Program-made: the position numbers and the translations under genes | Shown: in pieces, positions 5,858 through 48,637 of the stretch | Layout: every line of letters begins with the position of its first letter | Position numbering within the stretch: the first letter of the stretch is position 1 | Notes under the pieces: generated by a model | Databases searched by the model: none | What the model was told of the DNA's origin: nothing | What the model saw: the letters and a program-made list of their open reading frames with translations, nothing else | DNA from: Actinotignum urinale DSM 15805 | GTDB taxonomy: Bacteria > Actinomycetota > Actinomycetes > Actinomycetales > Actinomycetaceae | Direction of reading: 5' to 3' | Length of the DNA: 64,000 nt | Assembly (NCBI RefSeq): GCF_000420445.1 | Contig: NZ_ATUY01000007.1 | Location: 1-64,000, forward strand

Positions 5858-5922
5858 TTTAGGATACGCGAAAATTACACACGTGTAACATGACGCGCCG
5901 CACATTTTAGAATGGAATGTGC

Positions 5923-6036
5923 AAGGTGCGCCACAGCCACTTCTCAACAGGACTCACCAGTGGTCCGACTATATTGTGGAAGGTGTACCACAGCAACATC
6001 TCAACATGACACATCAGTGGCTGGATTTGACTGTGG
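5923..6036. repeat. Two tandem 57-bp imperfect repeats downstream of prfB
   Basis: Copies at 5923-5979 and 5980-6036, both running from AAGGTG..CCACAGC through TCTCAACA and CAGTGG to TGTGG. They start 10 bp beyond the prfB stop on the minus strand and fill the prfB-ftsE gap. Confidence 0.75.
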
Positions 6037-6045
6037 ATTAGCACG

Positions 6046-8862: not shown

Positions 8863-9022
8863 GTGTTTACTTCGGCGTTTATTTCGGCATGCGGGAAAGA
8901 ATATCTTTTCGCTAAGTAAGTGTTTACCTCTGCGTTTATTTCGGCATGCGGGAAAGAATATCTTTTCGCTAAGTAAGTGTTTACCTCTGCGTTTACTTCG
9001 GCATGCGGGAAAGAATATCTTT
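8863..9022. repeat. 57-bp tandem repeat, about 2.8 copies, spanning the adnB stop
   Basis: Units start at 8863, 8920 and 8977; the two left copies are nearly identical. On the minus strand each carries ATATTCTTTCCCGCATGCCG followed by AA(A/G)TAA, so the terminal codons and stop of adnB (MPK stop, 8993-8995) are duplicated twice downstream. Confidence 0.9.
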
Positions 9023-12000
9023 TTCACTGAGTTTGCCTACTTTCACCTCCATTTTTTCGGGTTTTTCTTTCAGGTAGATAAAGCTGGCGTCGATTTCTTC
9101 GATGGGTATGTTATGTGTGCGTGCCCACGCGAGCCGATAGAGCGCTAACTGAAGTTCGCGTGATGCTAGTTGTTTTTCATCTGGGCGTCTGCCTGTTTTC
9201 CAATCGACGATGGTGATGTTTTTACGGTTTGGCGCAGAGCTTGTGTCGAGAATTGCATCAATGGTGCATCGAATAATTTTCCCGTCGATAACTATTTCCA
9301 TGGCTTCTTCAATTCCGAGGGGTGGATATGTGGAGAATTCGGAGTTCATATAGTTATCCCAAAGTTTTTCTATGTCTTTTTCGGTGGCAATTCCTTCGTT
9401 TTCCCATTCGTCAGCAAAATCGATGTCCAATGTTGCAACTTTGTCGTACGACTCCGCAATTTTTGCATGAAGCAGTGTGCCTAATCGCGCAGCTCTTGAT
9501 GGTTGAAGGGGTATGGGGCGAAGGAGTTGTTTTTCGTACGTGTCTGCATATTCTGATAATCCGACGATGTCACTCGCCGTATAGTATTCACGCTCTAACT
9601 TTATGCCGGATAGTGGCGTAGCCTCAGGTGTGCTTGTTTTACCTGGGGTTTTCTTTGCGTTTTCGCCTATTTCTTCATTGAATTTCATGTCTCCTTCATG
9701 AGTTGTCCCTAAGCGTGGTTTTACAGGGGGTTTATTTTCGTCATGCTGTTTACCGTAAGTTTTTTCGGTGAAGCGACGTAATGCCGTATAGATGTGTTCT
9801 TTTTCTTCCTCGCTGAGTTGCTGTGTTTCTCGGGGAAGGCTTCGGGCGTTATCGTGTGGCCAATAAAGGGTTTCTGGTGCATCCAGATAATCCACAACTT
9901 TTGTTTCATCGGAAGGATGGAGAACAGATTCTTCGAAAATTTCCCGGAGTTGTTCCACGCTAAAGGAGTTGGGCGCCTGATATTTTAATGCGTCTTCCCA
10001 GTGTTCTTCTCCATGATGGAGGGGAACGCTAAGGCGTGCGCATTCATCTCGGACGTTCATCAAAAATACGGATGGTTCTTCTGCTGTAATCCCCGCTATT
10101 TCGAGTAGTCGGCGTTCTTCATCTATGTCGCTTGGATCCTTTGCGGTTTGCGTTGTTTTTGATGAGCTTTTTTTGTTTGAAGTGCTGGCTTTCTCCAATT
10201 TTTCTAAGTCTTTTTCGTACTTGGCTACTTTTTTACCAACATCGTCTAGGTCTTTAAATGCGTATCCGACGAGCATGAGTTCTTTACTTGCGCGAGTGAA
10301 GGCAACATACGCTAAACGTCGTGCTTCTTCGCTTTCCTTCCAACATAGGTAGTCTTTGAATTCCGCGTATTGGCTTGCTGTTTCTTTTTTGTCTGTCATG
10401 TCGGCGAGCCGGAATTGCCCTAAATATTCGTAGTCGCTACGTAAGGGGTAGGGAAAAACTCCAGAATTTTGTGGCCAGGCTTTTACCCGTTCCGTTATGG
10501 TTGATAACCCTGATGTCACCATATCGGGAATAACAACGAGGTCTTTCCATTCCAAGCCTTTGGAGGCATGGATTGTCATGATTTGTACGACTCCTGGGTT
10601 GACTTCTTTTTCTTCGTCGAGGATGGCTATATCTTCACCGGCTTCTTCTTCCCCACCGTGTTCTTGTTCTTCAACAATATCTAGCCAGTTGATAAAGTCG
10701 ACGGGGTTGGTTGTCGCATGGATTTTTCCGTATTCTCGCGCTACTGCAACAAATTGTTCAATGGATGTTTGGACGCGTTGTTTACCTTGTGATCGGCTTG
10801 ATACCGCAATATCTAGGCCTAGCAGTGTTATTGCTGTTTTTACTTGATCTGCTAGTGGTTGGGATGCAACACGTCGCATGGATTGTAACGCTTTGGCGAT
10901 ATGTTCTAAACGGCTTACTCCTTCTTCTGTTATTCCCCGGTTTTCTTTACGTGCTTTTTCCAACCATTGGGTAAATATGCGGTTCTCCACAATGGCGTCG
11001 AGAGCTTCTAACATATTTGTTTCGTCGCGAATATTGAGAGTGTTTTCGGTTTTTTCTTTTTCTTCAAGGCGGCGAACCTGTATAGACGTGTATTCTCTTG
11101 CCCATCGTGCTAGTTCGCGAATATCACGGACACCAATATTCCAGTAGGTAATGAGACGTGCGAGGGCGTCGCCTCTAGCGGGGTTGTTTGCGGCGCTAAG
11201 AAGTGCGCGTAGGGTGATAATTTCTGGGCGTTTAACTAGACTTTCTCCACCAATAATTTCGTAGCGAATGATTTTGTGTTGAGGGTCGGCTTCGTGTAAT
11301 GCGTTAACGACGTCATCAAATTGGGAACGTTTCCGGCAAAGTACAGCTATTTCTGCACCTCGTGCTTCTTTGCCTTGGGCTTTGCGTATGTCGTTTTCTT
11401 TTCTGACGTTCTCATAAACGTCAAGTATTCGCCTAGCGATTGCCTGATAGGATTCTTCACGCATGAGTGTTCTCACGTCACGAACAATTCCTTCTCCTGC
11501 GCCTTTACGTGGTTCAAGGGCGAGCACTGTTGACGAACTTTTCTTCATTTTGTGCACAATCGGTGTATCTTCAACGGTTTCTGGCAGAGGTATTTCTGTG
11601 GTGACCGCATTTCCAGCAACAAGAACGGCTTTATCATTCCTAAATGCTGTTGATAGGTGAAGTCTTTGAACGCCTCCAAATACTTCTTTCATACTTTCAG
11701 CAAAGTTTTCGAGTGCCGATGCGCTAGCTCCACGCCAACCGTAAATGGCTTGGTTGGGATCCCCTACCGCCGTGATGGAAAGGTTTTCTCCCTTGTGTGC
11801 GGTCAGTGCGCGAATGAGGAATCGTGCCTGGTTGACGTCGGTATCTTGGTATTCGTCGAGAAGAACGAGACGGTATCGTGACGATATTTCTTGTGCGACG
11901 AAGGGGAACTTTTCAACAATGTGTGCCGCTGTGGATACTTGATCAGCGAATTCGGAGAGATGCTCGTCTTTTTTTATCTGATGGTAATTTTCTACTGCCT

Positions 12001-12721
12001 GGAGAAGGGCAAGAATAACCTCGGGTGTGTTTTTCTTTTTTAATGCACTGAAAGCTAGCGATGCCTTAGGGTGGCGTGGTTTTCTGATTGTGCTTGAATC
12101 TTCAATAAAATCCTTGAGTTTTGCGGATTCTTGTTTGCAGAATATCCTGGCTTCCTGCAGGCTAACACCGTTATTAATTAAGCCGTCCGATATGGTTAGC
12201 GCTTGTGTGATGGCCGAGGATAATGAGATGTCTTGGAGTGGAGCCAATGCTGGAGATTGAGGTAGCTGTTGAATGACGCGCCGCATAAGCGAGTATCTAT
12301 CAGCTTCCGTCATGAGTCTGTTGGATGGATCGGCTCCTACAAGAACTCCATACGTGGAGGCAATATCTGAGGCGAAAGAATTATAGGTGCTAATAGTGGG
12401 TTGTTTGAATACGACATGAACATCACCTTCTGGACTCTCAAAATTCCCCATGAGGTTGAGCGCGTGAAGACGTTTGGTAACGCGTTCTTTCAGTTCCCCG
12501 GCCGCTTTGTTTGTAAAGGTTAGTCCAAGTACCTGCCCGGGTTTTACGTTTCCAGCCGCCACATGGTAGGCAATACGGTCCGTCATGGTCTTGGTTTTTC
12601 CCGACCCTGCCCCCGCAATAACGAGGATGCCTGGCTCTTCGCACACAATAACCTGTTCTTGTTCGGGCGTTGGCGGGAATTTCCCGTCGTTTATTTTTGC
12701 ATATGCTTCGCTGTTTATCAT
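8993..12721 (-). CDS. adnB: AdnB: UvrD-like helicase with RecB-type nuclease domain
   Basis: Subunit of the heterodimeric AdnAB motor-nuclease that resects double-strand DNA ends for recombination (the actinobacterial counterpart of RecBCD/AddAB). 1242 aa, somewhat longer than mycobacterial AdnB. Q-motif and Walker A GAGSGKTKTM (residues 37-43), TFTNKAA (motif Ia), LLDEYQDTDVNQARF (motif II), GDPNQAIYGWRGA (motif III), IMTIHASKGLEW (motif V) and VAFTRASKELML (motif VI) are all present, then a C-terminal nuclease with IRCTIDAILD and IVDWKTGR.PDEKQLASRELQLALYRLAWA. Starts inside the last codons of adnA (ATGA overlap), so the pair is coupled. The region around residue 820-850 is Lys/Ser-rich and poorly conserved. 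Its stop lies within a 57-bp tandem repeat. Confidence 0.92.
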   Translation of the reverse strand: MINSEAYAKINDGKFPPTPEQEQVIVCEEPGILVIAGAGSGKTKTMTDRIAYHVAAGNVKPGQVLGLTFTNKAAGELKERVTKRLHALNLMGNFESPEGDVHVVFKQPTISTYNSFASDIASTYGVLVGADPSNRLMTEADRYSLMRRVIQQLPQSPALAPLQDISLSSAITQALTISDGLINNGVSLQEARIFCKQESAKLKDFIEDSSTIRKPRHPKASLAFSALKKKNTPEVILALLQAVENYHQIKKDEHLSEFADQVSTAAHIVEKFPFVAQEISSRYRLVLLDEYQDTDVNQARFLIRALTAHKGENLSITAVGDPNQAIYGWRGASASALENFAESMKEVFGGVQRLHLSTAFRNDKAVLVAGNAVTTEIPLPETVEDTPIVHKMKKSSSTVLALEPRKGAGEGIVRDVRTLMREESYQAIARRILDVYENVRKENDIRKAQGKEARGAEIAVLCRKRSQFDDVVNALHEADPQHKIIRYEIIGGESLVKRPEIITLRALLSAANNPARGDALARLITYWNIGVRDIRELARWAREYTSIQVRRLEEKEKTENTLNIRDETNMLEALDAIVENRIFTQWLEKARKENRGITEEGVSRLEHIAKALQSMRRVASQPLADQVKTAITLLGLDIAVSSRSQGKQRVQTSIEQFVAVAREYGKIHATTNPVDFINWLDIVEEQEHGGEEEAGEDIAILDEEKEVNPGVVQIMTIHASKGLEWKDLVVIPDMVTSGLSTITERVKAWPQNSGVFPYPLRSDYEYLGQFRLADMTDKKETASQYAEFKDYLCWKESEEARRLAYVAFTRASKELMLVGYAFKDLDDVGKKVAKYEKDLEKLEKASTSNKKSSSKTTQTAKDPSDIDEERRLLEIAGITAEEPSVFLMNVRDECARLSVPLHHGEEHWEDALKYQAPNSFSVEQLREIFEESVLHPSDETKVVDYLDAPETLYWPHDNARSLPRETQQLSEEEKEHIYTALRRFTEKTYGKQHDENKPPVKPRLGTTHEGDMKFNEEIGENAKKTPGKTSTPEATPLSGIKLEREYYTASDIVGLSEYADTYEKQLLRPIPLQPSRAARLGTLLHAKIAESYDKVATLDIDFADEWENEGIATEKDIEKLWDNYMNSEFSTYPPLGIEEAMEIVIDGKIIRCTIDAILDTSSAPNRKNITIVDWKTGRRPDEKQLASRELQLALYRLAWARTHNIPIEEIDASFIYLKEKPEKMEVKVGKLSEKDILSRMPK

Positions 12722-26797: not shown

Positions 26798-26825
26798 ACA
26801 CTGTAACTTTCTACTAAGTTTGTTG

Positions 26826-26894
26826 TGTGCCAGATGCTTTGTTGTGCACTAGACGTTTGGTTGCGTGCTAGACGCTTGGTTGTCCGCCAGAAGC
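26826..26894. repeat. 19-bp tandem repeat over the yihY stop codon
   Basis: Units at 26826, 26845 and 26864, with a partial fourth at 26883: TGTGCCAGATGCTTTGTTG, TGCACTAGACGTTTGGTTG, CGTGCTAGACGCTTGGTTG. The gene's stop (TAG, 26868-26870) lies in the third unit and is repeated in the second. Confidence 0.85.
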
Positions 26895-28562: not shown

Positions 28563-29621
28563 TTAGTCAATAACGACAACGGGCTTAATGAGGTCCGCTG
28601 GCTTGTCACGCATGAGGAAGAGCGCTTCTTCGAGCTTTTCCCATCCGTGGAATACGTGGGATGCCAAGGGCTTAACGTCCAGACGGCCTGCGCTAACCAA
28701 TGCGCCAAGCTTTTCCATACGCAGGCGCCCGCCGGGCATGAGACCTCCGTTAATCTGCTTGTGGCCCATACCAACGCCCCATTCGACGCGAGGAATACGC
28801 ACATAATCGCCGGTGCCAAGGTAGTTGACATTACCTACTGCTCCGCCTGGCTTGAGTGCTGCTACAGCGTCGATGAACGTGTCTCCGTCGCCACCTGCGA
28901 CGATGACGCGGTCAACGCCTTTACCGTCCGTGAGCTTCAAAACCTGCTCGGCAATTCCGCCATCTCTGTAGCTGATGAATTCGGCTGCCCCGTAGCCTTT
29001 CGCCACTTCGACACAGTTGGGGCGCGTACCGACTGCCATGATTCTGGCGGCACCGCGAAGATTTGCGCCCGCAACGCTCATGAGGCCGACCGGGCCGATG
29101 CCGATAACGAGGACAGTGTCACCGAATTTAACGTCGGCAAGTTCCACGCCATGGAATCCTGTGGGAACCATGTCGGAAAGCATGCAGGCCTCTACGGGGC
29201 TGACGTTATCTGGCATGATAGCGAGGTTGCCGTCTGCGTCGTTCACGTGGAAGAATTCGCCAAAAACGCCGTCTTTGAAGTTGGAGAACTTCCATCCGGC
29301 GAGCATTCCGCCTGAGTGCATGGAGTAGCCGGCCTGGGCTTCCAGCGAATTCCAGTCCGGGGTGATGGCGGGAACGAGAACGCGATCTCCGGGCTTGAAG
29401 TCGCGAACGAGTTCACCAACTTCGACGACCTCACCGCATCCTTCGTGTCCGAGGATCATGTTATGGCGGTCCCCGATGGCGCCTTCCCAAAGCGTGTGAA
29501 CATCGGATGTACAAATTGCGACGGCAAGCGGGCGGACGATGGCATCCATTGGGCCACAGACCGGGCGTTCTTTCTCAATCCAACCAGATTCGCCAATTTT
29601 AAGCATTGCGTATGCTTTCAT
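28563..29621 (-). CDS. adh: NADP-dependent secondary alcohol dehydrogenase (zinc)
   Basis: 352 aa, full length. Strong overall resemblance to the Thermoanaerobacter brockii/Clostridium secondary alcohol dehydrogenases: GWIEKERPVCGPMDAIVRPL, AICTSDVHT (zinc Cys37), MILGHEGCGE (His59, Glu60), MLSDMVPTGFHG (zinc Asp), VLVIGIGPVGLMSVAG (Rossmann) and AVGTRPNC, whose GTR replaces the GSR that selects NADP(H). The structural zinc lobe of classic ADHs is missing, as expected for this tetrameric group. It interconverts secondary alcohols and ketones, or reduces aldehydes. Given the fucose cluster, reducing lactaldehyde to 1,2-propanediol is a possible role, but this is inference. Preceded by an unusual hairpin array. 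ATG follows GAAAGGCTTAAAAC. Confidence 0.92.
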   Translation of the reverse strand: MKAYAMLKIGESGWIEKERPVCGPMDAIVRPLAVAICTSDVHTLWEGAIGDRHNMILGHEGCGEVVEVGELVRDFKPGDRVLVPAITPDWNSLEAQAGYSMHSGGMLAGWKFSNFKDGVFGEFFHVNDADGNLAIMPDNVSPVEACMLSDMVPTGFHGVELADVKFGDTVLVIGIGPVGLMSVAGANLRGAARIMAVGTRPNCVEVAKGYGAAEFISYRDGGIAEQVLKLTDGKGVDRVIVAGGDGDTFIDAVAALKPGGAVGNVNYLGTGDYVRIPRVEWGVGMGHKQINGGLMPGGRLRMEKLGALVSAGRLDVKPLASHVFHGWEKLEEALFLMRDKPADLIKPVVVID

Positions 29622-29645
29622 GTTTTAAGCCTTTCGATGTTCGGC

Positions 29646-29879
29646 GGGGCAGGCAAGAGCCCCTGTATTTGATTTGTGCGGGGCTGGGATTGCCCCTATG
29701 TAGTTAAGAGCCGATGTGGCTCGATTTATGTTCACAGAGTTGGTATATCTCCGTTGTTATGTGCGTGGAGCCGGAGCGACTCCACTATCAGTCTCGGGAG
29801 CCGTAATGGCTCGATTGGCAGTTATCGGGAACAGAAACAACCCCGTTCTTGTACGGCTAAGGAGCCGAAGTGGCTCCTT
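29646..29879. repeat. Array of eight small hairpins at about 30-nt spacing
   Basis: Self-complementary arms: GGGGC/GCCCC (29646-29663), GGGGC/GCCCC (29680-29696), GAGCC/GGCTC (29708-29722), GAG/CTC (about 29736-29752), GTGGAG/CTCCAC (29765-29785), GAGCC/GGCTC (29798-29812), GAAC/GTTC (29829-29848), AAGGAGCC/GGCTCCTT (29859-29879). Spacing between unit starts is 28-34 nt with A/T-rich linkers. Arms differ between units but still pair. The array begins 25 bp upstream of the adh start. Confidence 0.7.
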
Positions 29880-30216
29880 TATTCTTGTGAGCAAGTTTGA
29901 AAAACCCTCGTCGGTTATAAAGGATTAATGTAACCCTGTAGCCGATTCCGGTAGGACATTCTGCCCCCTGTTGCAGTTGGAAATACGCACAACTTTACGC
30001 GATTTCACACCAGCTATTCACAGCATAACAGCGATTCTAGTGGTGTTCGACACGTTTTTCGTTTGAGTAAAAATTACACTCTATCGATAACGAAAATGCA
30101 TAAATGCCGCACGGAGAACCGGGTCGAAAGTCCTTTAATATCAACGTTTATGCCGCGCCCTCCCCTTATCTGTTACATTTATTTATACATGTAACGCATT
30201 ACCTGAGGATATGGCC
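29880..30216. other. Region between the hairpin array and the zinc-ribbon gene
   Basis: No gene seen. Contains the inverted repeat GTTACAT/ATGTAAC (30171-30194), about 20 bp before the zinc-ribbon start, which may be an operator or promoter-linked palindrome. Confidence 0.45.
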
Positions 30217-31336
30217 ATGTTCTGCACGCGATGTGGTTCCAAAAATGATGAGACTTATGCATTCTGCATGACGTGCGGTGCTCCACTTGAACATAATCCC
30301 TAACACAATAAGTTCAACGCACACCCAGAACCCCAACAACTCACTCCCCAGGTAGCCCCCAACCCTGGACAAGAACCGCACAATAGCCTGCCCAACCCTG
30401 GACAAGAACCGCACAACAACTTACCTGAATCCACGCAGGCTTCCCCTCACGTAGTGCCCAGCCCCGTGCAAGAAACACCCAACAACCCACCATTCTCCGA
30501 ACACAATACATTCAAAACAAGGCCAGAACCCACACAGCCCTCTCCTCTAGTAGCGCCAAGCCCCGGACAAGAACCGCTCAACGACTTCCGCGAGCCCCTA
30601 CTGCAAGCCCCGCCTCAAGCTACTCCTCAGAGCACTCCTCAGGCGACTCCCCCACCCAGGCAACAGAAGAAAAAGCCGGGCAAGTCGTCGTCGAAAAAAC
30701 TAAGAAAAAGTCGACTTCTTCGCCAAAAGGTTTATATATTATGACGATTGCTAATGTGGCAATCCTTTCTTGCGTGGTGACGTCGGCGGCGTGGTTCACG
30801 TTTGGGTCACGTGGCTACAAGGTTCCGTTGAAGATTTCCGCTGAAGGGTTGGTACGACGAAGGGAACGTTGACTCCTGTTCGCATTGTAGGGACGACGGG
30901 TAGCGGGAAAACATACACGGCGAATGTGTATTCCGACCTTGAGGGCAAAGGGGTGGAAGTTCCTGAGACTGGGACGTATGAATTCACCATGTACGCCTCC
31001 CCAATTGGTGAGAACGGGCAAATGTATAAAGTTTCCGGGGCGAAGGTGAAGGGCACGGTGTCGAAAAAACGTTTACCGTAACGGAGACTCATCCCGTCAG
31101 CGACGCCCCTAGTGGCGCGGATGCAGGCGGGGATTCAGGAAAGGGCGCCCCTGGTTCTGCAAGCGCAGGGAATCCTGGGAATTCTTCTGATTCTTCAAGT
31201 TCCGGAAGTAGCTCCCGAATACATATTCTCTATTGCTGATGGACGCATCAAAATAAGCGATAAGGAAAGAATGAAAATAACGAATTCTACGCACAACTAC
31301 TACAGGGCAATCGCCAACACTGCCAAGCGCCGGTAA
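30217..31336 (+). pseudogene. Broken zinc-ribbon, Pro-rich, membrane, YARHG-like protein
   Basis: An ATG at 30217 behind TGAGGAT opens MFCTRCGSKNDETYAFCMTC (a CxxC...CxxC zinc ribbon) and stops at TAA 30301. Without the stop, the same frame continues through a Pro/Gln-rich linker (repeated PNPGQEPHN blocks) to 30744. The protein resumes one frame over as TKKKSTSSPKGLYIMTIANV AILSCVV-type membrane segment, shifts again to PVRIVGTTGSGKTYTANVYS (a beta-rich extracellular domain), again to EKTFTVTETHPVSDAPSGAD plus a Ser-rich linker, and finally to EYIFSIADGRIKISDKERMK to 31336, which resembles the start of a YARHG domain. Two of the shifts fall at TCGAAAAAA tracts and would be repaired by one extra A. 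One nonsense codon plus about four frameshifts: a dead gene, unless some shifts are sequencing errors. Confidence 0.7.
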
Positions 31337-31543: not shown

Positions 31544-32560
31544 TTAGCCTTTTTTGTCGGAGGTTTTATTAATGGAAACAACCGAGGAGCGGATATTGAG
31601 CTTCATCGGATACCATTGGCTTTTTGCCGGTTTACCCACGCCGATGGCAAAAAGCGCATCGAAAGCGCCTTTAGCCATAGTCGTCATGGGCTGATGAACC
31701 GAGGACAACCTGGGACGCAACCAATCACACAGGTTGATATCGTCGCAACTAACAATCGATAAATCTTCGGGGATTCGCAAAGAATACCGTTCCGCGGTGC
31801 TCAAAATCCCAATCGCCGCAATATCGGAGGACACGAAAACGGCGGTCGGGCGCGGGTTTGCCTGAACAATGTTCGGCAAAATCGAGGCGCCAAAAACCTC
31901 GCTGAAGGGCCCGTGGAAAACGAGACCCTCGTCAACCGCGCAACCGTGGAACGCCATGGCTTCACGGAAACCCGCTTCGCGCGCGCGGGCGGTAGCCAAT
32001 TCCGTTCGCCCGCCAACAAAAGCAATACGTGTGTGCCCGCAGGACACGAGATGATTTACCGCCTGATAGGCGCCGTTTCTGTTATCGCTACTGATGAGAC
32101 ACAGATTATTATGGGCAGAATCGAACACTTCTTCGTCGACCATGACGAAAGGTTTCGTGATGAGCCTGGGATCCATGAGCCCTTCAAGCGAATTTGAACC
32201 CACAAAAAGGATTCCCTGAATTTGTTCGTTATCGTTCAAGCTTTTAATGAGCTCTATTTCTTGGGACACCACACCGTTTGTGACGTGGAGGGAGACGTCA
32301 ATGCCACGTTCGCGCCCGATGCGTATAACGTGTTCGGCAAGAAGCGCAAAAAAGGGGTTCGTTAGCTCGGGAATAATAAGGGCGACGGATGTAATGTCAA
32401 GGAAAGTTACGTGTGGGCGTTCCCAACCGACCTTATCCATTGCGGTAATGATTTTGTCTTCCGTTTCAGGAGTGACCCTTAAATGCCCGCGAACGTAACG
32501 CGACACCGTTGACGCGGAAACCCCAGCGACGCGGGCAACTTCTGTTAGGGATGACTGCAA
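31544..32560 (-). CDS. LacI-family transcription regulator
   Basis: 338 aa, TTG start with GAGGAAGCTC before it. N-terminal helix-turn-helix TEVARVAGVSASTVSRYVRG, hinge VTPETEDKIITAMDKVGW, then a periplasmic-binding-protein-like sugar domain (ALIIPELTNPFFALLAEHVI, HTRIAFVGGR, AVFVSSDIAAIGIL, LSIVSCDD). Lies downstream of the fucose catabolic genes on the same strand and is a candidate sensor of L-fucose or a pathway intermediate. Palindromes AACGTG-N6-CACGTT (35584-35601) and GTTTCA-N11-TGAAAC (35615-35637) upstream of the dehydrogenase gene could be its sites; this is a guess. Confidence 0.92.
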   Translation of the reverse strand: MQSSLTEVARVAGVSASTVSRYVRGHLRVTPETEDKIITAMDKVGWERPHVTFLDITSVALIIPELTNPFFALLAEHVIRIGRERGIDVSLHVTNGVVSQEIELIKSLNDNEQIQGILFVGSNSLEGLMDPRLITKPFVMVDEEVFDSAHNNLCLISSDNRNGAYQAVNHLVSCGHTRIAFVGGRTELATARAREAGFREAMAFHGCAVDEGLVFHGPFSEVFGASILPNIVQANPRPTAVFVSSDIAAIGILSTAERYSLRIPEDLSIVSCDDINLCDWLRPRLSSVHQPMTTMAKGAFDALFAIGVGKPAKSQWYPMKLNIRSSVVSINKTSDKKG

Positions 32561-32873
32561 GAGCTTCCTCTAATCCCTTCCCGAAAACTCGCGGGTTGGA
32601 ACATCCATCAAGATTTGTTTTGATTCATGTTACAAGGATTTTTGCGTCGAAAGCATCCATCTTTTTCAGCTGTTTCAAGGCTTTTGCCGTAAATTCAACA
32701 CGATAAGTGTTCTGAGAAGGACTTATGTATTCAACACAACCTTGGCGAACAATACAAAACGCAATACACGGTTGGTGCGGAACTCCCATAAAGTTCCGCA
32801 CCAACCGTGCCTGTAAAACCAGTCCTACTCCACTTCAGTTTCCGGTAGGGTTGTGCCCAGCACCGGGATTCAG
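32561..32873. other. Intergenic region between the aldolase and lacI genes
   Basis: 313 bp with no gene; holds the strong terminator at 32767-32809 and the lacI promoter zone. Confidence 0.6.
32767..32809. terminator. 18-bp perfect hairpin after the aldolase gene
   Basis: CACGGTTGGTGCGGAACT, 7-nt loop, AGTTCCGCACCAACCGTG. Placed about 65 bp past the aldolase stop (minus strand); marks the end of the fucose operon. Confidence 0.85.
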
Positions 32874-33785
32874 CTACTCAGCCTTTGAGGAAAGCGTCTC
32901 GTTAGGCAACGCCAGAATTTCCTTGATCCGCCCGACCTGCTCATCGGTCAGCTGGCATGCCGGCTCCTTAATACGCGTGCTAATATCCACGCCCTTAACC
33001 TTCACACCGCCCTTAATCGCTGAAATAAACAGCTCGGTCACCTCATAAAGCTCCATCAAAATCGCAACACGCCGCTCCTTAGCCGCAACAGTCGCAAAAT
33101 CACCAGCCTCATAAGCCTTATGTAAGGCAACAAACGTCTCCGGCTCAACATTCGTCATCCCCGTCAAAATACCATTACCGCCGGACGCACGATTCGACAG
33201 ATAGTATTCGTCGTACCCAGAAAGAACAGCGAAATCACGACGGAACGGCCTTACCGCCCTCAAAATCCTGCGCGTATGGCTCGCCGTATCAACCGTATCC
33301 TTAATCCCCACAATATTCGGGAACTCGCGCGCCAAACGAGCAACCAACTCCGGGCTCAAATCCGAACCCGTACGATCCGGGAAGTTATACAACAACACAT
33401 CAATATCGCACGCACCCGCAATCGCCGCGAAATACCTATACGCAACCTCGCTCGACGGACCAAAATAATACGGGCTCACAGCAACAACCGCATCCGCCCC
33501 AGCCTTAGCGCTATACGCCGTCAACTCACACGCCTCTTTCAGCGACGTGTTCCCCACACCAACAAGAAGCTGCACACGCCCATCAACATGCTTCACAGCA
33601 AAATCGACAGCCTCACGCTTCTCCTCCTCCGTGAAGGAATAAAACTCACCAATGGAACCAAAAATTAAAATTCCATTAATACCCGCACCAATCAACCGAT
33701 CAATATGCGTAGCCCACCCCTCGAAATCAATCGATTCGTCATCCCGAAGCGGAGTCACACTCGGCGTATAAATCCCATGAAACAT
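32874..33785 (-). CDS. DapA/NAL-family aldolase, probably 2-keto-3-deoxy-L-fuconate aldolase
   Basis: 303 aa class I aldolase. TIM barrel with GSIGEFYSFTEEEK (pyruvate-binding loop), LLYNFPDRTGSDLSP (Tyr of the YN.P motif) and NIVGIKDTVD (Schiff-base Lys). In dihydrodipicolinate synthase itself the first motif is GTTGE; GSIGE and the surroundings point to the sugar-acid aldolase branch. With fuconolactonase and fuconate dehydratase upstream, the expected reaction is cleavage of 2-keto-3-deoxy-L-fuconate to pyruvate and L-lactaldehyde, as in bifidobacterial fucose clusters. ATG follows AGAAAGGATGAGATT. 41 bp after the lactonase gene. Confidence 0.88.
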   Translation of the reverse strand: MFHGIYTPSVTPLRDDESIDFEGWATHIDRLIGAGINGILIFGSIGEFYSFTEEEKREAVDFAVKHVDGRVQLLVGVGNTSLKEACELTAYSAKAGADAVVAVSPYYFGPSSEVAYRYFAAIAGACDIDVLLYNFPDRTGSDLSPELVARLAREFPNIVGIKDTVDTASHTRRILRAVRPFRRDFAVLSGYDEYYLSNRASGGNGILTGMTNVEPETFVALHKAYEAGDFATVAAKERRVAILMELYEVTELFISAIKGGVKVKGVDISTRIKEPACQLTDEQVGRIKEILALPNETLSSKAE

Positions 33786-33826
33786 AATCTCATCCTTTCT
33801 GGTTTTAAATATTCAAAGAAATCGTT

Positions 33827-34615
33827 CTAATGTAAAGAATAAACCCGCCTTGCGGTGTCCGCAAAAACGTTGGCGTCGTCGTTGAAGAATTCACGAACCT
33901 GGTCCAGGTGCTCATGGAAATCCCCATACAGCTCCACGACCGGCCAGTTCGAAGCATACATCAACCTTTCAGCCCCAAAGCTTTCCTCGAGCAACGTATA
34001 TACGTCGCGCACAAAACCGCGATCCTTCGTCGCAATCCCTGAAAGCTTGCAGTAAACGTGTGGAAGTGACGCTAACGCCTTAATATCCTCAACGTATTTT
34101 TCATCAATCTTCTGGACATTTCCACAATGGTCGACGACGACGCTCAAAGACGGCACGCACAAACATGCATCATACACATCGCGCAGTTCCGGGGTTCGGA
34201 CGCACGCATCGAAGGGTATTTCCGCATCTGCCAAATCTCCCAGCCCCGTGAGGAAGTCTGGCTGCAAGCAGGTTTTTGGAGGCGCATCCGGCGTGTGGAG
34301 GGGACGCCTAATACCGTTCGCGCCTTGTGGAACACGGATACGTTGTGTGACCTCTGTGCGCAGAACTTTCCCCAGAATTTCGGGGTGTGTAGCCATAGCT
34401 TCCGCAATATGCTGTTCTTCTACTGTTGTATCGTCACCGTCGACTTCAACATATACAGCTCCGCGGAAGTTCACGTCCTTGTGCTGTGCGTATAGTTCAA
34501 CAAGTTCAGGGAAAATCCACGTTTTCGCAATACTCGGGCAGTCAGCTAACCAAGGAAGGTTTTGCTTATCAAGATCCCAAATATGGAAATGTGAATCAAT
34601 AAGATCCAGGGGCAT
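33827..34615 (-). CDS. L-fuconolactonase-like amidohydrolase
   Basis: 262 aa, amidohydrolase superfamily (COG3618). N-terminal IDSHFHIWDLDKQNLPWL supplies the HxH metal pair; GAVYVEVDGDDTTVEEQHIA, VVVDHCGN, HVYCKLSGI and LMYASNWPV (for the usual .(F/Y)GSDWP) follow. Opens the lactone formed by L-fucose dehydrogenase to L-fuconate. Lies between the dehydrogenase and aldolase genes. RBS AGAAAGAATGAAAA. Members also act on other sugar lactones; fucose is assigned from context. Confidence 0.88.
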   Translation of the reverse strand: MPLDLIDSHFHIWDLDKQNLPWLADCPSIAKTWIFPELVELYAQHKDVNFRGAVYVEVDGDDTTVEEQHIAEAMATHPEILGKVLRTEVTQRIRVPQGANGIRRPLHTPDAPPKTCLQPDFLTGLGDLADAEIPFDACVRTPELRDVYDACLCVPSLSVVVDHCGNVQKIDEKYVEDIKALASLPHVYCKLSGIATKDRGFVRDVYTLLEESFGAERLMYASNWPVVELYGDFHEHLDQVREFFNDDANVFADTARRVYSLH

Positions 34616-34677
34616 TTTTCATTCTTTCTACCAGTTTGCGGGGCACAATACCAGGTATCATGCCCCGCCTTTCGTAT

Positions 34678-35466
34678 TTAGTTCAACGCACGATCGAGGT
34701 GGACATAGCCACCATCGGGATGCAACCACTGGCCGGTGGTATGGCTGGAGCGTGGGGAGAGAAGGAACGCCGCCATATCTCCAATTTCTTCAGTGGATGT
34801 CATACGCTTGCCGAGCGGAATCTTGTCCTCAATAAGGGCAAGTCGTGCTTTCTGGGCCGCTTCATCACCGAAGCTCTTAATCCACCTTGCATACAGCGGA
34901 GTCCATGCTTCGGCAACAACAATGGCGTTCACACGCACATTATCTTCTGCCAATGCGGCAGCCCATTCACGAGTAAGCCCGAGGATAGCGCCCTTTGCCG
35001 CTGCGTAAGCACTTGTTTTACCCTGGCCGGTGAGTGCCGTCTTGGAACCAATATTCACAATGGACCCTTGAGATTCCTTCAGGTATCCGACGGCCTGATG
35101 GACAAGTTCGTAATAGTGGGTGAGGTTACCGTGCAGCGACTTCTCAAAATCACGCCAGCTTGTATTTTCCAAATCGCAGTTATCGTTTGCGCCAGCATTA
35201 TTGACAATACCGTCAATATGTCCGTACTTCTTGTAAACTTCTTCAACAATTGGAGCAATACCATCGGTATCGTTCAAATCAAGCTGATAATACTCATACG
35301 TATCTGTAACAGCTGTAATATCGGCAACGAATTCGTCGTCCACTGGTGAACGGTTAATAATCACAGGAATGGCGCCTTCAGTGGCAATGGAAAGAACGAT
35401 GCCTTTTCCAATACCGTTCTTACCTCCCGTGATGATAATGACTTTATTTTGTAACTGTAAATCCAT
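34678..35466 (-). CDS. SDR-family dehydrogenase, probably L-fucose dehydrogenase
   Basis: 262 aa from ATG 35464-35466 (MDLQLQNKVIIITGGKNGIG); the 25 upstream residues in frame are probably leader. TGGKNGIGKG coenzyme loop, NNAGAN, catalytic Ser in IVNIGSKTALTG and Y..AK in SAYAAAKGAILGL. Oxidises L-fucose at C1 to the lactone with NAD(P)+. The segment HTTGQWLHPDGGYVHLDRAL at the C-terminus matches sugar SDRs from fuconate clusters. Substrate is inferred from neighbours. Confidence 0.87.
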   Translation of the reverse strand: MDLQLQNKVIIITGGKNGIGKGIVLSIATEGAIPVIINRSPVDDEFVADITAVTDTYEYYQLDLNDTDGIAPIVEEVYKKYGHIDGIVNNAGANDNCDLENTSWRDFEKSLHGNLTHYYELVHQAVGYLKESQGSIVNIGSKTALTGQGKTSAYAAAKGAILGLTREWAAALAEDNVRVNAIVVAEAWTPLYARWIKSFGDEAAQKARLALIEDKIPLGKRMTSTEEIGDMAAFLLSPRSSHTTGQWLHPDGGYVHLDRALN

Positions 35467-35833
35467 ATTCTTCTTCGATTCTTTAAAATTGTTGTGTATG
35501 TGTGAGTAGTGCGTTTCTTGCGTCCAACCTTGGCTCGCCAACGCGGTTTCTCACGTTTTTGTAGTGTCTAACCTTGACGCACTAACGTGTTGTGTCACGT
35601 TAATTTTCAGTAGTGTTTCAAAGTATTTCGATGAAACATCTACGTTACGCCGACCTACCGTTCTATATTTTTTCTGATGTACGACGCCACCACGCCAGTG
35701 TTGATTCACCGCCATTATGGCGCCGTATCATCTCTTCTACCACGTGTTAACGCGACTTTAACGCTAACCGTGTGTTACTCGTCGCGACATTCGTCGCACA
35801 TAAGGAGCTATTTTAATAACACAAGATGCTATA
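35467..35833. other. Promoter region of the SDR-lactonase-aldolase genes, with palindromes
   Basis: 367 bp without a gene. Contains AACGTG-N6-CACGTT (35584-35601) and GTTTCA-N11-TGAAAC (35615-35637), both candidate operators. Confidence 0.5.
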
Positions 35834-36253
35834 TTAAATAACGCCTTTTTTCAAAATAATGTTTCCGTATGCAGCGGTTTCACCCGTGGCAACAACGGCG
35901 AAGGTTTTCGTCGTGTGACGATAGAACTCGAATCGTTCAATAAGGCTTGTTTCGTATTCTCCTTCGTGAGAAGAAATCACATCCTTATACGTATTCCACA
36001 CATCGGGTGCCACGTCGCCTGGAACGGGTTCCATTAAAGCGACTTGCCAATCGTTATAGCGGTCAAGCGGCATGAGTGTCAAAATTGCGTCGAGCAGTTC
36101 TGGAATATTGTGTCCATCTGCGCGAATAACATTGTCATTATTCGCTACCGACGGGAAATTCGCGTCCGCGAGAACAATTTCGTCGCCGTGCCCCATGCTC
36201 ATGAGCGTGTACACAAGATCAGGGCTAAGAATTTTCGGAATGTTTTTTAACAT
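35834..36253 (-). CDS. fucU: L-fucose mutarotase (RbsD/FucU family)
   Basis: 139 aa, full length. Starts MLKNIPKILSPDLVYTLMSM and has the conserved GHGDEIVLADANFP block, with the catalytic His, and RADGHNIPELLDAILTLMPL. C-terminal Y near ATGETAAYGNIILKKGV fits the FucU active site. Interconverts alpha- and beta-L-fucose, supplying the anomer used by the dehydrogenase. 14 bp after fucP, so cotranscribed. RBS AGGTGCTCAC. Confidence 0.94.
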   Translation of the reverse strand: MLKNIPKILSPDLVYTLMSMGHGDEIVLADANFPSVANNDNVIRADGHNIPELLDAILTLMPLDRYNDWQVALMEPVPGDVAPDVWNTYKDVISSHEGEYETSLIERFEFYRHTTKTFAVVATGETAAYGNIILKKGVI

Positions 36254-36267
36254 GTGAGCACCTGTGC

Positions 36268-37626
36268 TTAATCTTCGATAACTGCGTCGAAGGAGTTGGA
36301 TTCATCAACTTCAAGGTCATGCTTCAATGCGTAAATACCGTAGAGGCAGATAACGATGAAGCAAATCAACACGACGGAGAAGCTCATTGCGGTACCGGAT
36401 ACGTCACGCAGATGTCCTTGTACGACGGGGATAATCGCGCCACCAATAATCGACATCACCAGGCCGGCCGAACCGTACTTGGTGTCCGGGCCAACGCCGT
36501 GAAGTGCGATACCGTAAATCGTTGGGAAGAGGAGGGAGATGCAGGCGGACAGCGCAGCGATGCAAATCATTCCAACAACGTTGTGGGAGACAATGCCGAC
36601 GAAGGTGAACACTGCGCCAAGGCCCGTCATAATAATGAGCAGGAAACGCGGATCAACGATACCCATAATCCACACCATGAGGAAGCGCATCACGAGGAAG
36701 CAGATCAGCGAGAACTGGAGCCACCAACCGGCTGTTGCTTTCGAAACATGGAGGTAATCTTCAGCGTAGAAAATAATGTAGGTCCAGATACAGGACTGTG
36801 CGGCAATGTTGCAGAATTGCGCAACGACGCCGAAGGAGTAGAGCGGGTTCTTGAGGAGGCGACCGAAAACGCCGGGCTGGCGCTGAATACCGGACTTGGA
36901 ATCCGCAACAATGTTCTGGCGCTTCTGGATCTTCACCATGGCAATGCAGATTGCCAGGAAGAGGTAGAACAGACCGAGAACAATGTAGGGTGCCATCACG
37001 GCGCCGAGTTCTGCGGACTGCTTATCGAGAAGCTGTTCGGGGCTCATCGCCGCTTTTTCTTCGGGTTTTACTTCATGAACATAGGGAAGAATGAAGAAGG
37101 TAGCTGCAAGAACACCAATGTTGGAGCCGATGGGGTTGAATGCCTGGGCGAAGTTCAAACGGCGGGTTGCTGTTTTTTCTGGGCCCATTGCCATAATGAA
37201 GGGGTTTGCGGAGGTTTCCACGATGGAAAGGCCACCAGCTAGAACGAAGAGAGCTGCGAGGAACATTCCGAAGGTCATGACCTTGGAAGCCGGGAAGAAG
37301 AGGAGCGCGCCGATAGCCGCGAGGCTCAGCCCGATCACTACACCACCCTTGTAGCCTAAACGGGAGTTAATCCACGCGGCCGGGATGGCCAAGCAGAAAT
37401 AGGCACCGAAATAGGCAAATTGTACGAGCGAGGACTGCACCGTGCTCATATCAAAAACAGATTTGAACACGTTCACCAAAGGTGCCGTCAAATCTGTTGA
37501 AATACCCCATGCAGCGAAGCAGGTAACGAGCAGAATGAAGGCGAACTTCATTCCTGGCCAAACGAAGGGTGCTTTGCCACCTTCGTGCGCCGGCGTGCCT
37601 GCGCGTTTATTTGTTTCTTTATCCAT
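36268..37626 (-). CDS. fucP: L-fucose:H+ symporter (FucP family)
   Basis: 452 aa MFS permease with twelve predicted membrane segments. Diagnostic FucP features: WGISTDLTAPLVNVFKSVFD (TM1), QSSLVQFAYFGAYF (TM2), RLGYKGGVVIGL, GLSIVETSANPF and NLAQ-like RRLNFAQAFNPIGSN. The acidic residue in TM1 (ISTD) is a proton-coupling candidate. N-terminal 25 residues are cytoplasmic and basic. Heads fucP-fucU, behind the dehydratase gene. Confidence 0.93.
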   Translation of the reverse strand: MDKETNKRAGTPAHEGGKAPFVWPGMKFAFILLVTCFAAWGISTDLTAPLVNVFKSVFDMSTVQSSLVQFAYFGAYFCLAIPAAWINSRLGYKGGVVIGLSLAAIGALLFFPASKVMTFGMFLAALFVLAGGLSIVETSANPFIMAMGPEKTATRRLNFAQAFNPIGSNIGVLAATFFILPYVHEVKPEEKAAMSPEQLLDKQSAELGAVMAPYIVLGLFYLFLAICIAMVKIQKRQNIVADSKSGIQRQPGVFGRLLKNPLYSFGVVAQFCNIAAQSCIWTYIIFYAEDYLHVSKATAGWWLQFSLICFLVMRFLMVWIMGIVDPRFLLIIMTGLGAVFTFVGIVSHNVVGMICIAALSACISLLFPTIYGIALHGVGPDTKYGSAGLVMSIIGGAIIPVVQGHLRDVSGTAMSFSVVLICFIVICLYGIYALKHDLEVDESNSFDAVIED

Positions 37627-37735
37627 GTTATTATTTCTTTCTCTTCATGTCACTGTGATGCAGAGAAAAAGCCCCCGCCCCTACGACGAGGGCTGTCCGC
37701 AACTCAGCTCATGTCCTGAATGTGCGGGTTTTTTA

Positions 37736-39019
37736 CTACCCTTTAAAGGTGTAGCGTTCGATAGATTCCGGGTACATTTCTGAGGATGCTCCCGGTGTTG
37801 TTGGTGTTTGATAATGGCCATTCTTGATAACCACAGGCGTCAAGAAATGCTCATGAAGATGATGAACGTATTCAATGTAGCGATCTTCCGTTGTGCCGGA
37901 TACCGCAACATAGTCAAACATCGACATATGGCAAATGAGTTCGCACAGCCCTACCCCACCGGCATGTGGGCAGACACGAACACCAAACTTTGCCGCAAGA
38001 AGAAGCATGGCAATATTTTCATTCGGCCCAGCAACACGCGTCGAATCGAGCTGAAGAACGCTCAATGCGTTAGCTTGCAAGAACTGCTTTGCCATAATAC
38101 GGTTTTGCATTTGTTCACCCGTTGCCACCGGAGTTGGTGCGATTGCCTTAGCAATCGCTGCGTGGCCGAGAACATCATCCGGGCTAGTAGGCTCTTCCAC
38201 CCAAGCAATATCAAACTCTGCAAGCTGCTTAATCCACTCGATAGCATCCGGCACGTCCCACACCTGGTTAGCGTCCACCGCAATCTTAATATCCGGACCA
38301 ACAGTTTCACGCGCCTTACGCAAACGGCGACGATCTTCTTCGACGCTTCCGCCGACCTTGAGCTTAATCTGCTTAAAGCCTTCTACCTCAACAGCTTCGC
38401 GCGCCAAACGCATCATTTTTTCATCACTATAACCAAGCCAACCAGGGGTTGTGGTGTATCCGGGGTAGCCTTCTTCAAGGAGTTTCGCCATACGTTCTTC
38501 GCGTCCAGGTTCTGCCTTACGAAGAATCTCTAACGCCTCTTCTTCCGTAAGAGCATCACGCAAATAACGGAAATCAACACACTCAACAAGTTCTTCCGGA
38601 CTCATAGTAGCAAGCAACTGCCACAACGGCTTACCAGCCCGCTTTGCTTTCAAATCCCACAAAGCCGTAAGAACAGCACCAATCGCCATATGCTCAACAC
38701 CCTTTTCCGGGCCAAGCCAACGCAACTGGGAATCATAAATGAGGGACTTTGACGTTGCGCCCATGTGTGCGAGAAGATCCTCAACGTTCTTACCCTTAAT
38801 GTGGGCTTCTAAATCTTGTATGGCCGCGAGAACGACGTCGTTTCCGCGTCCAATTGTAAAAACAAAACCGTGGCCAGTTAATCCGTCGTCCGCATCGGTT
38901 TCAATAACACAATAAGCGGCTGAATAATCCGGATCCGGATTCATAGCATCAGAACCATCCAAAAATTCTGACGTGGGAAAACGTACATCATGCGTACGCA
39001 GTGCGGTGATTATACTCAT
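37736..39019 (-). CDS. L-fuconate dehydratase (enolase superfamily)
   Basis: 427 aa. Converts L-fuconate to 2-keto-3-deoxy-L-fuconate. Enolase-superfamily markers: KQIKLKVGG (K.K), [10 protein letters not shown] (first metal Asp), [10 protein letters not shown] (Glu), ATGEQMQNR (Glu), and [13 protein letters not shown] (catalytic His). N-terminal [20 protein letters not shown] and [11 protein letters not shown] are characteristic of the FucD branch, and length matches it. AAAGGAGATTCA precedes the ATG. First gene of the minus-strand fucose run, divergent from the IclR gene. Confidence 0.94.
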
Positions 39020-47296: not shown

Positions 47297-47698
47297 AATT
47301 CAGAGTCCTTTCTCTAAATGCCTAGGTACTTCTAAATCTACGCTGAAACTCCCCTCTATGCCAGTACTATAACGATTTATGAACACCTATTTTTGACGCA
47401 ATTTCACAAGTTATTTGTTACGCTATTTTTTTAGACGTATCTCAGGTGTGCAAAGGCCTATGAAATGGCTAATTTTCCCCATTGTGAGCTTCACGTTAAG
47501 CCCTATTGCAAACCACCGATTTAGTCCATGCACGCCTCGTGTTAACCCCTATTATGCGCCTGGCGTATGCGTCAAAAAATGTCGCGGAAAGCAATCACAC
47601 TTTCCGCGACATTTTGAAAATTTTAGACTGTTTATTTCATGCAAGCCCCGCGTCTATTTCGCAACAAGCCTGCGTCTATTTCGCGCCAATCCCCGCGT
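47297..47698. other. Gap between folD and the amidohydrolase gene
   Basis: 402 bp without a gene; contains the folD 3' repeats and the terminator at 47577. Confidence 0.6.
47577..47616 (-). terminator. glyA-folD operon terminator
   Basis: AAAATGTCGCGGAAAG, 8-nt loop, CTTTCCGCGACATTTT, then further T on the minus strand: a 16-bp perfect stem, 83 bp past the folD stop. Confidence 0.92.
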
Positions 47699-47715
47699 CT
47701 ATTTCGCGCCGATCC
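47646..47715. repeat. 22-23-bp tandem repeat copying the folD stop
   Basis: GCGTCTATTTCGC occurs at 47650, 47672 and 47695. Read on the minus strand each unit is GCGAAATAGACGC, i.e. the final Ala-Lys-stop of folD; the real stop is in the right-hand unit. Confidence 0.88.
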
Positions 47716-48637
47716 CCGCGTTGCGCTCCGCCGTTTCCACAACGTTTTTGAGCAACATGACGCGCGTCATCGGCCCGACGCCCCCGGGATTCGGGGAAAC
47801 CCAGGATGCAACCTCACGCACAGCCGGATCCACATCACCAAGCGTCTTAAAACGTCCCGTTTCGGGATTGGGAACTCGTGTTACCCCAACATCGACGACG
47901 ACGGCACCCGGTTTCACCCATTCTTTTTTCACGAAGTGGGCAATCCCAACAGCTGCGATAATAACGTCTGCAGTTTTGCAGATGTCCTCAACATTCTCGG
48001 TGCCGGTGTGGCAAAGCGTGACGGTTGCGTTGTTTTCGCGTCGCGTTAACAACAAACCAATCGTTCTACCGACCGTAATACCGCGCCCTAGAACAACCAC
48101 GTGTTTACCTGCAACGGAAATATTGTGGCGGGTAAGAAGTTCGAGGATACCTGCGGGCGTGCAAGGCAAGGACGATTCAATAGGGCCGGATACGTTTGCA
48201 ACAAGGCGTCCCATGCTTGTGGGATGCAGACCATCAGCGTCCTTATCTGGATCAATTCGTTCCAGCAATGCGTTGGTTGGCATACCTTTGGGAAGTGGAA
48301 GTTGCAGAATATAGCCGGTACATGCCAGGTCATTGTTGAGCCCGTCAATAGCCTCTTCTACATCTTCCACGCTTGCCGTTTCCGGCAGTTCCACTCGGAT
48401 AGATTCAATGCCGACCTCGGCACAATCGCGGTGTTTTCCACCCACATATGCCTGGCTTCCCGGATCTTCACCAACAAGAATGGTTCCCAATCCGGGGCGC
48501 TTGCCGATAGCTGCCAATGCTTCCACACGTTCACGCAGTTCGTCTTTAATGGCCGCTGCGGTTGCTTTACCGTCGAGAAGCTGAGCGGTATGAGCTGTTT
48601 CGCCCACTGTTGTGTCCTTTATCGTATCGTCAGCCAT
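47699..48637 (-). CDS. folD: Methylenetetrahydrofolate dehydrogenase/cyclohydrolase
   Basis: 312 aa; makes 10-formyl-THF from 5,10-methylene-THF. [13 protein letters not shown] (catalytic Lys of YV..K), [30 protein letters not shown], and the NADP site [17 protein letters not shown]; typical GRS..VG reads GRGITVG here. C-terminal [13 protein letters not shown] intact. The ATG directly follows the glyA stop (TAGATG), so the two are coupled and supply one-carbon units together. An N-terminal extension of about 17 residues is unusual. Confidence 0.95.

Follow-up and report, generated by a model that had tools for sequence, protein, structure and literature searches.

The adh gene of Actinotignum urinale DSM 15805 was analysed within a contig stretch of 64,000 nucleotides (the window). 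Its product matched the NADP-dependent secondary or isopropanol dehydrogenases among the proteins of known structure, with a best E value of 2.7e-160, and the closest relatives among the best 80 matches listed were from the Coriobacteriia (among them Atopobiaceae, Olsenella and Collinsella), with identities of 87-89%. At E 1e-80 or better, a relative of adh was found in 9 of 213 genomes of the family, its own genome included, and in none of five genomes of the same genus. As judged from these sequence comparisons, adh has likely been transferred from the Coriobacteriia.

This Coriobacteriia-like gene has an L-fucose catabolic cluster as a neighbour (Table 1), which comprises genes for a LacI-family regulator, a DHDPS-family aldolase, an L-fucose dehydrogenase, a fuconolactonase-like amidohydrolase (match below the curated cut-off), a FucU-type mutarotase, a FucP-type permease and an enolase-superfamily dehydratase. 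Between the cluster and the hairpin array described below, an apparent decayed gene is found on the plus strand (~30217-31300), in pieces that lie in several frames and that, by eye, suggest a zinc-ribbon, proline-rich, membrane-type protein; two of the pieces gave no Pfam match. A perfect 7-bp inverted repeat, GTTACAT-N10-ATGTAAC (30172-30195), precedes it and is operator-like. Elsewhere in the window, a 57-bp tandem repeat of 2.8 copies, 97% alike, extends from an intergenic region into the end of the gene at 8993-12721, presumably a large helicase-like gene (repeat at 8863-9023), and a repeat of 22-23 bp in ~3.5 copies (47633-47721) lies mostly between minus-strand genes and reaches the end of the gene at 47699-48637.

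Directly upstream of adh, positions 29646-29879 carry on the minus strand, which is the adh sense, eight simple, bulge-free and non-overlapping hairpins of -5 kcal/mol or better each (u1 to u8).

Table 1. Features of adh and of the region upstream of it (positions in the window).
Feature	Position	Strand	Description
L-fucose cluster	31544-39019	-	same strand as adh, 1.7 kb upstream of the array
Possible promoter/operator stretch	29913-29935	-	TATAAC (29919-29914) within GGTTA-N13-TAACC; by eye only
Hairpin u8	29859-29879	-	AAGGAGCC/GGCTCCTT, 8 bp, 5-nt loop, -13.8 kcal/mol
Hairpin u7	29829-29848	-	GAAC.../GTTC, extended by G-U pairs, 4-nt loop, -7.4 kcal/mol, weak
Hairpin u6	29798-29812	-	GAGCC/GGCTC, 5 bp, 5-nt loop, -8.1 kcal/mol
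Hairpin u5	29765-29785	-	GTGGAGTC/GGCTCCAC, one G-U on the minus strand, -14.5 kcal/mol
Hairpin u4	29734-29754	-	ACGGAG/CTCTGT, one G-U on the minus strand, 9-nt loop, -5.5 kcal/mol, weak
Hairpin u3	29708-29722	-	GAGCC/GGCTC, 5 bp, 5-nt loop, -8.4 kcal/mol
Hairpin u2	29680-29696	-	GGGGC/GCCCC, 7-nt loop, -10.2 kcal/mol
Hairpin u1	29646-29663	-	GGGGC/GCCCC, 8-nt loop, -11.3 kcal/mol
Leader ORF	29757-29894	-	45 aa
Leader ORF	29625-29735	-	36 aa
Spacer, array to adh start codon	29622-29645	-	24 nt
Likely ribosome-binding site	29635-29630	-	GAAAGG, from sequence; putative role
adh	28563-29621	-	NADP-dependent secondary (isopropanol-type) alcohol dehydrogenase, 352 aa

An earlier note on this DNA had reported eight self-complementary units spaced 28-34 nt apart, with A/T-rich linkers and ending 25 bp before the adh start. 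The eight units stand, six of them being strong and two (u4 and u7) ordinary, weak hairpins. The spacing is regular, with centre-to-centre distances, in the aligned register and from the u8 side, of 33, 31, 30, 31, 29, 27 and 33.5 nt, hence 27-33.5 nt as measured, and the array does lie directly upstream of adh, but at 24 nt. The linkers (10, 16, 12, 10, 11, 11 and 16 nt in order from u8, 86 nt in total) consist of 44% A, 27% C, 12% G and 17% T and are thus 61% A+T, more exactly A-rich and G-poor. Loop sizes over the eight hairpins are 3, 4, 5, 5, 5, 7, 8 and 9 nt.

CGAAAGG, which includes the likely ribosome-binding site, likewise precedes adh in several Coriobacteriia loci. A consensus scan of the array region listed no minus-strand promoter, and a simple consensus scan of 29500-30400 gave no minus-strand terminator-like site. 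Since the hairpin-plus-T sites of the same scan fall on the plus strand only, the leader does not amount to a series of ordinary adh terminators. Two ORFs of 74 and 70 aa cross the array on the plus strand, and none of the four short ORFs across the array (36 to 74 aa) gave a Pfam match at E 1.

Hairpins were counted as non-overlapping, bulge-free structures with a cut-off of -5 kcal/mol or a stricter one of -8 kcal/mol. At -5, the minus strand has eight (energy sum -79.2), a number reached by none of 1000 dinucleotide shuffles (mean 1.55, maximum 5; mean 1.6 and maximum 5 in a rerun), so that the earlier reading holds in that the array exceeds chance. The background in the window is ~1.9 such hairpins per 240 nt. 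On the plus strand there are five, equalled by 33 of the 1000 shuffles. At -8, six remain on the minus strand and five on the plus strand, and none of 1000 shuffles attains either count (mean 0.39 and maximum 3 for the minus strand). Folding of the whole leader as RNA gave a z score of -5.4 for the minus strand vs -2.2 for the plus strand. G-U pairs, which might have served as proof of the strand, were dropped as such because a strand-blind choice of stems gave three on the minus and two on the plus strand; as these counts are nearly equal, the strand call rests on folding energy.

The structure scan was extended to the window plus 20 further stretches of the same genome (460.4 kb, about a quarter of the genome, in 45,578 window-strands of 240 nt). 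The array was the most extreme of all 45,578 by energy; eight hairpins at -5 occurred in four window-strands and six at -8 in the array alone. Outside the array, five hairpins at -8 occur in stretches of L180 and L181, which are open in one frame over their whole length and are coding-like. In a structure-only scan of 163 other loci (812.7 kb, overlapping loci counted in and stretches above 60% GC dropped), array-like energy (~-79 kcal/mol) was absent. The better-scoring stretches inspected (L175, L144, L161, L180, L181 and L094) have open frames, except for L161, which contains a tRNA-His gene, and the first half of L175. The row of eight hairpins is non-random.

The units are only partly related to each other. 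A direct-repeat search detected two sets of repeats, a family of 19 nt (29708, 29798 and 29862) and a pair of 22 nt (29767 and 29861). In a comparison of 17-nt cores that took in six units (all except u1 and u7), u8 was identical to each of u3, u5 and u6 at 14 of 17 positions and those three to one another at 11-13, whereas u2 or u4 shared 8-10 positions with any of the six. A covariance model built from all eight units (R1) recovered, in the window, all but one of the units that it was trained on. As R1 was trained on its own targets, a model from u3, u5, u6 and u8 (R2) provided the fairer test; it found its own four training units, each with an E value of 3.4e-7 or lower, but did not find u1, u2, u4 or u7, either with filters over 64 kb or without them over 20 kb, and, being built from four sequences only, it may miss distant members. 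Because R2 and the core comparison group the same four units, u3, u5, u6 and u8 are taken as one family by descent. Homology of all eight units, of which R2 misses the other four, was dropped; u1 and u2 have their GGGGC/GCCCC arms in common, and the weak hairpins u4 and u7 are at most candidate members of the family. From the relatedness of these four units, old tandem duplication is part of the history of the array. The earlier statement that the units do not stem from recent duplication thus holds in the sense that the duplication is old, and for the four clear relatives only.

The arms had also been said to covary between units, which was not borne out. In the eight-unit alignment (A2), 75% of the cells pair and four of eight pairs are changed on both sides; of 500 shuffles, 68 equalled the alignment in pairing, 140 in doubly changed pairs and 111 in covariation score, and over five measures 68 to 333 were as good. 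The covariation term of RNAalifold was only -0.14. Between u8 and u5, two adjacent pairs are changed on both arms, from A-U to G-C and from A-U to U-A (columns 7-28 and 8-27), which as a sign of covariation is suggestive only, these outer pairs being formed in three of the eight units. Mean pairwise identity in the alignment is 64% in stems vs 40% in flanks. When uniform decay of one ancestral array was simulated, a mean of 1.5-2.5 hairpins was left, and at none of the four rates did any of 400 runs retain eight. The simulation presumes one ancestor for all eight units, which is supported for u3, u5, u6 and u8 only; if the ancestor was shared, the hairpins have therefore been maintained, in line with the earlier proposal that they are kept despite sequence change.

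A second array was searched for in several ways. DNA searches with the array returned only the array itself in its own genome and no second array in 101 family genomes including its own; 57 of these had some match at E 1 or better, all short, the best outside the window at E 0.044. In the whole own genome, R1 matched the eight units (u3 at E 1.4) and seven scattered other places, the best of the latter at E 0.16. Among 99 genomes searched with R1 under stricter filters, which covers the sequence type of this array and would miss arrays of unrelated hairpins, 28 had a match at E 1 or better, its own among them. The best match in another genome (G066) had an E value of 0.0065, equal to that of u6, and the 98 relatives had no array, their matches being single or far apart. 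Of 26 non-array loci from the R1 searches, 22 were examined, and only L152 had a second unit, ~1.2 kb off. The earlier note had counted absence from other genomes against its reading, and no array was indeed found in any other genome searched by model or DNA. Phages gave no match to the array, plasmids a single match at E 0.8, and viral contigs five exact 17-mer matches with one unit apiece and no array.

The adh relatives were examined as a set of 89 loci, 88 of them distinct (L040 is the same as L072) and eight with less than 300 nt upstream. R1 gave 14 weak matches in these loci, the best at E 0.086, and none within 600 nt upstream of adh. The upstream regions of 15 Coriobacteriia adh genes were not hairpin-rich compared with 100 shuffles of each (z between -1.9 and 1.1). 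When bulges were allowed, in a looser measure applied to the 81 loci with at least 300 nt upstream, eight exceeded the window in hairpin energy; their GC content is 0.60 to 0.74 vs 0.50 here. A conserved leader inherited with adh was rejected, as no such array was found upstream of adh in these loci. In three uncultured genomes, two weak unit-like hairpins 76 nt apart lie downstream of adh on the opposite strand (L079 4101-4213, L096 4110-4222 and L098 2815-2927).

These results bear on the possibility that the array has no function, having arisen when a palindromic segment of a non-coding gap was duplicated locally and in tandem long ago, and that its arms are kept complementary by template switching during replication. 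Template switching is reported to create and maintain hairpins (PMC8794818). That the array is an orphan in the genomes searched and that four of its units are duplicates agree with such an origin, as do other tandem repeats outside genes in the window (for example 5918-6037 and 26822-26891) and the apparent decayed gene, which suggests a decaying region. However, this origin predicts neither the folding strand preference, nor the G-U pairs in u4, u5 and u7, nor the even spacing of unlike units, and by eye no loop is inverted between related units; we consider it somewhat unlikely.

The array might also act as DNA, as eight ~17-bp dyads with a GRG-N11-CYC core, set about three helical turns apart, to which a dimeric regulator would bind to control adh. 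In the alignment, columns 10-25 are G-C in all eight units and columns 12-23 are G with C or U in all eight, a sequence conservation that goes beyond pairing. The half-site distance is near-constant as well, and a gene of the LacI family is found 1.7 kb upstream of the array. The arms vary between units, however, and helical phasing of the eight dyads is not supported at 10.5 bp (R 0.39, equalled by 51% of random gap sets), with only R 0.58 at 10.0 bp. GAGCC-N5-GGCTC occurs at seven places in the genome, three within the array and four that are not array-like, vs five places for the reversed control. An operator array, which leaves the strand difference unexplained, thus appears unlikely.

As the earlier note had supposed, the array matches no RNA family in Rfam: the search gave nothing for it at the curated threshold, where only tmRNA was found elsewhere in the window, and over 29500-30200 the sole hit was SraG, with 19 bits vs a gathering threshold of 50 and E 0.97. 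The titles and abstract openings found by literature searches did not describe a tandem-hairpin adh leader of this kind. The nearest described architecture that we found is that of the proposed cluster-hairpin intrinsic terminators, which, according to PMC8355165, are contiguous short hairpins less than 15 bases apart, do not require a poly-U trail and are searched for downstream of stop codons. Of the seven linkers of the array, five (10, 12, 10, 11 and 11 nt) are below 15 and two are 16; unlike the terminators as described there, the array is upstream of a start codon, is regular in pitch and has units that are partly repeated.

Small hairpins in tandem within a leader are a trait that the array shares with the ANTAR motif, which according to PMC3369931 has two tandem hairpins with hexanucleotide loops, A being first and G fourth. 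The genome codes for one ANTAR-domain protein (E 2.5e-20, above the cut-off; G000:C8:40321-40476, L198). Unlike the motif as given there, the array has no 6-nt loop in any of its eight hairpins, and no minus-strand terminator-like site is present in 29500-30400. A scan of 29600-30000 for A1/G4 hexaloops found one on the plus and two on the minus strand (30000-29987 and 29790-29777, 4 pairs), the latter 200 nt apart and neither among the eight hairpins. An ANTAR leader was rejected, as the scans found no paired A1/G4 hexaloop hairpins and no terminator-like site on the minus strand, despite the ANTAR protein.

The antitoxin RNAs of ToxI-like type III toxin-antitoxin systems are encoded ahead of a gene as structured repeats of 30-odd nt in tandem. 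The array likewise consists of tandem structured repeats ahead of a gene, but this gene is an alcohol dehydrogenase and not a toxin nuclease, and the repeats are not near-identical. Sponge RNAs of the CsrB type are rows of hairpins, some of which carry GGA, and their bead-like build resembles that of the array, which might be a separately transcribed, trans-acting small RNA or protein-titrating sponge of tandem hairpins. In the array, GGA is in stems and not in loops, and CsrA had no match in the genome, in a search whose control finds CsrA in 3 of 14 genomes; kinship with Csr sponges was rejected on these grounds. With the adh start only 24 nt beyond the array, and the minus strand devoid of terminator-like sites in 29500-30400, a small RNA or sponge is very unlikely.

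The array is real and unusual; the searches found it in a single copy, and the evidence for a function is modest. The best explanation, plausible although held tentatively, is that it forms a structured 5' leader of the adh mRNA, so far seen in this lineage only, which has grown partly by tandem duplication and acts in cis on transcript survival or elongation. Its location upstream of adh, proposed earlier, agrees with this, since the array lies directly before the gene and folds most strongly in the adh-sense RNA, with A-rich, single-stranded linkers. Against it stand the five plus-strand hairpins at -8, which are also beyond their shuffles, the covariation within the shuffle range, the lack of a homologous array in the genomes searched and the lack of a minus-strand promoter in the consensus scan. 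We infer that a promoter just upstream of u8 transcribes the array, where TATAAC would put the start just before u8, and that selection may keep the stems paired. The leader would then protect the 5' end of the adh mRNA against degradation, in cis, and/or RNA polymerase would pause while the hairpins form, an effect that may be graded by the number of hairpins, and the stretch with GAAAGG that follows the array would leave the ribosome site open. Since neither a ligand nor a protein partner nor a terminator was identified, no sensing role is claimed. That the array is a modular mRNA leader of an undescribed type is quite improbable; such a leader would have hairpins of at least two sequence types at a ~31-nt pitch, would be expandable by duplication and would scale adh output with hairpin number or bind several copies of an RNA-binding protein.

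If the structured 5' leader does not work, the array calls for caution, as paired arms and even spacing can then mimic a conserved RNA though no homologue is found. If it does work, the array would provide a natural series for measuring hairpin number against transcript life or elongation, and would show how tandem duplication of one hairpin can give a probably acquired gene a tunable structured 5' leader.
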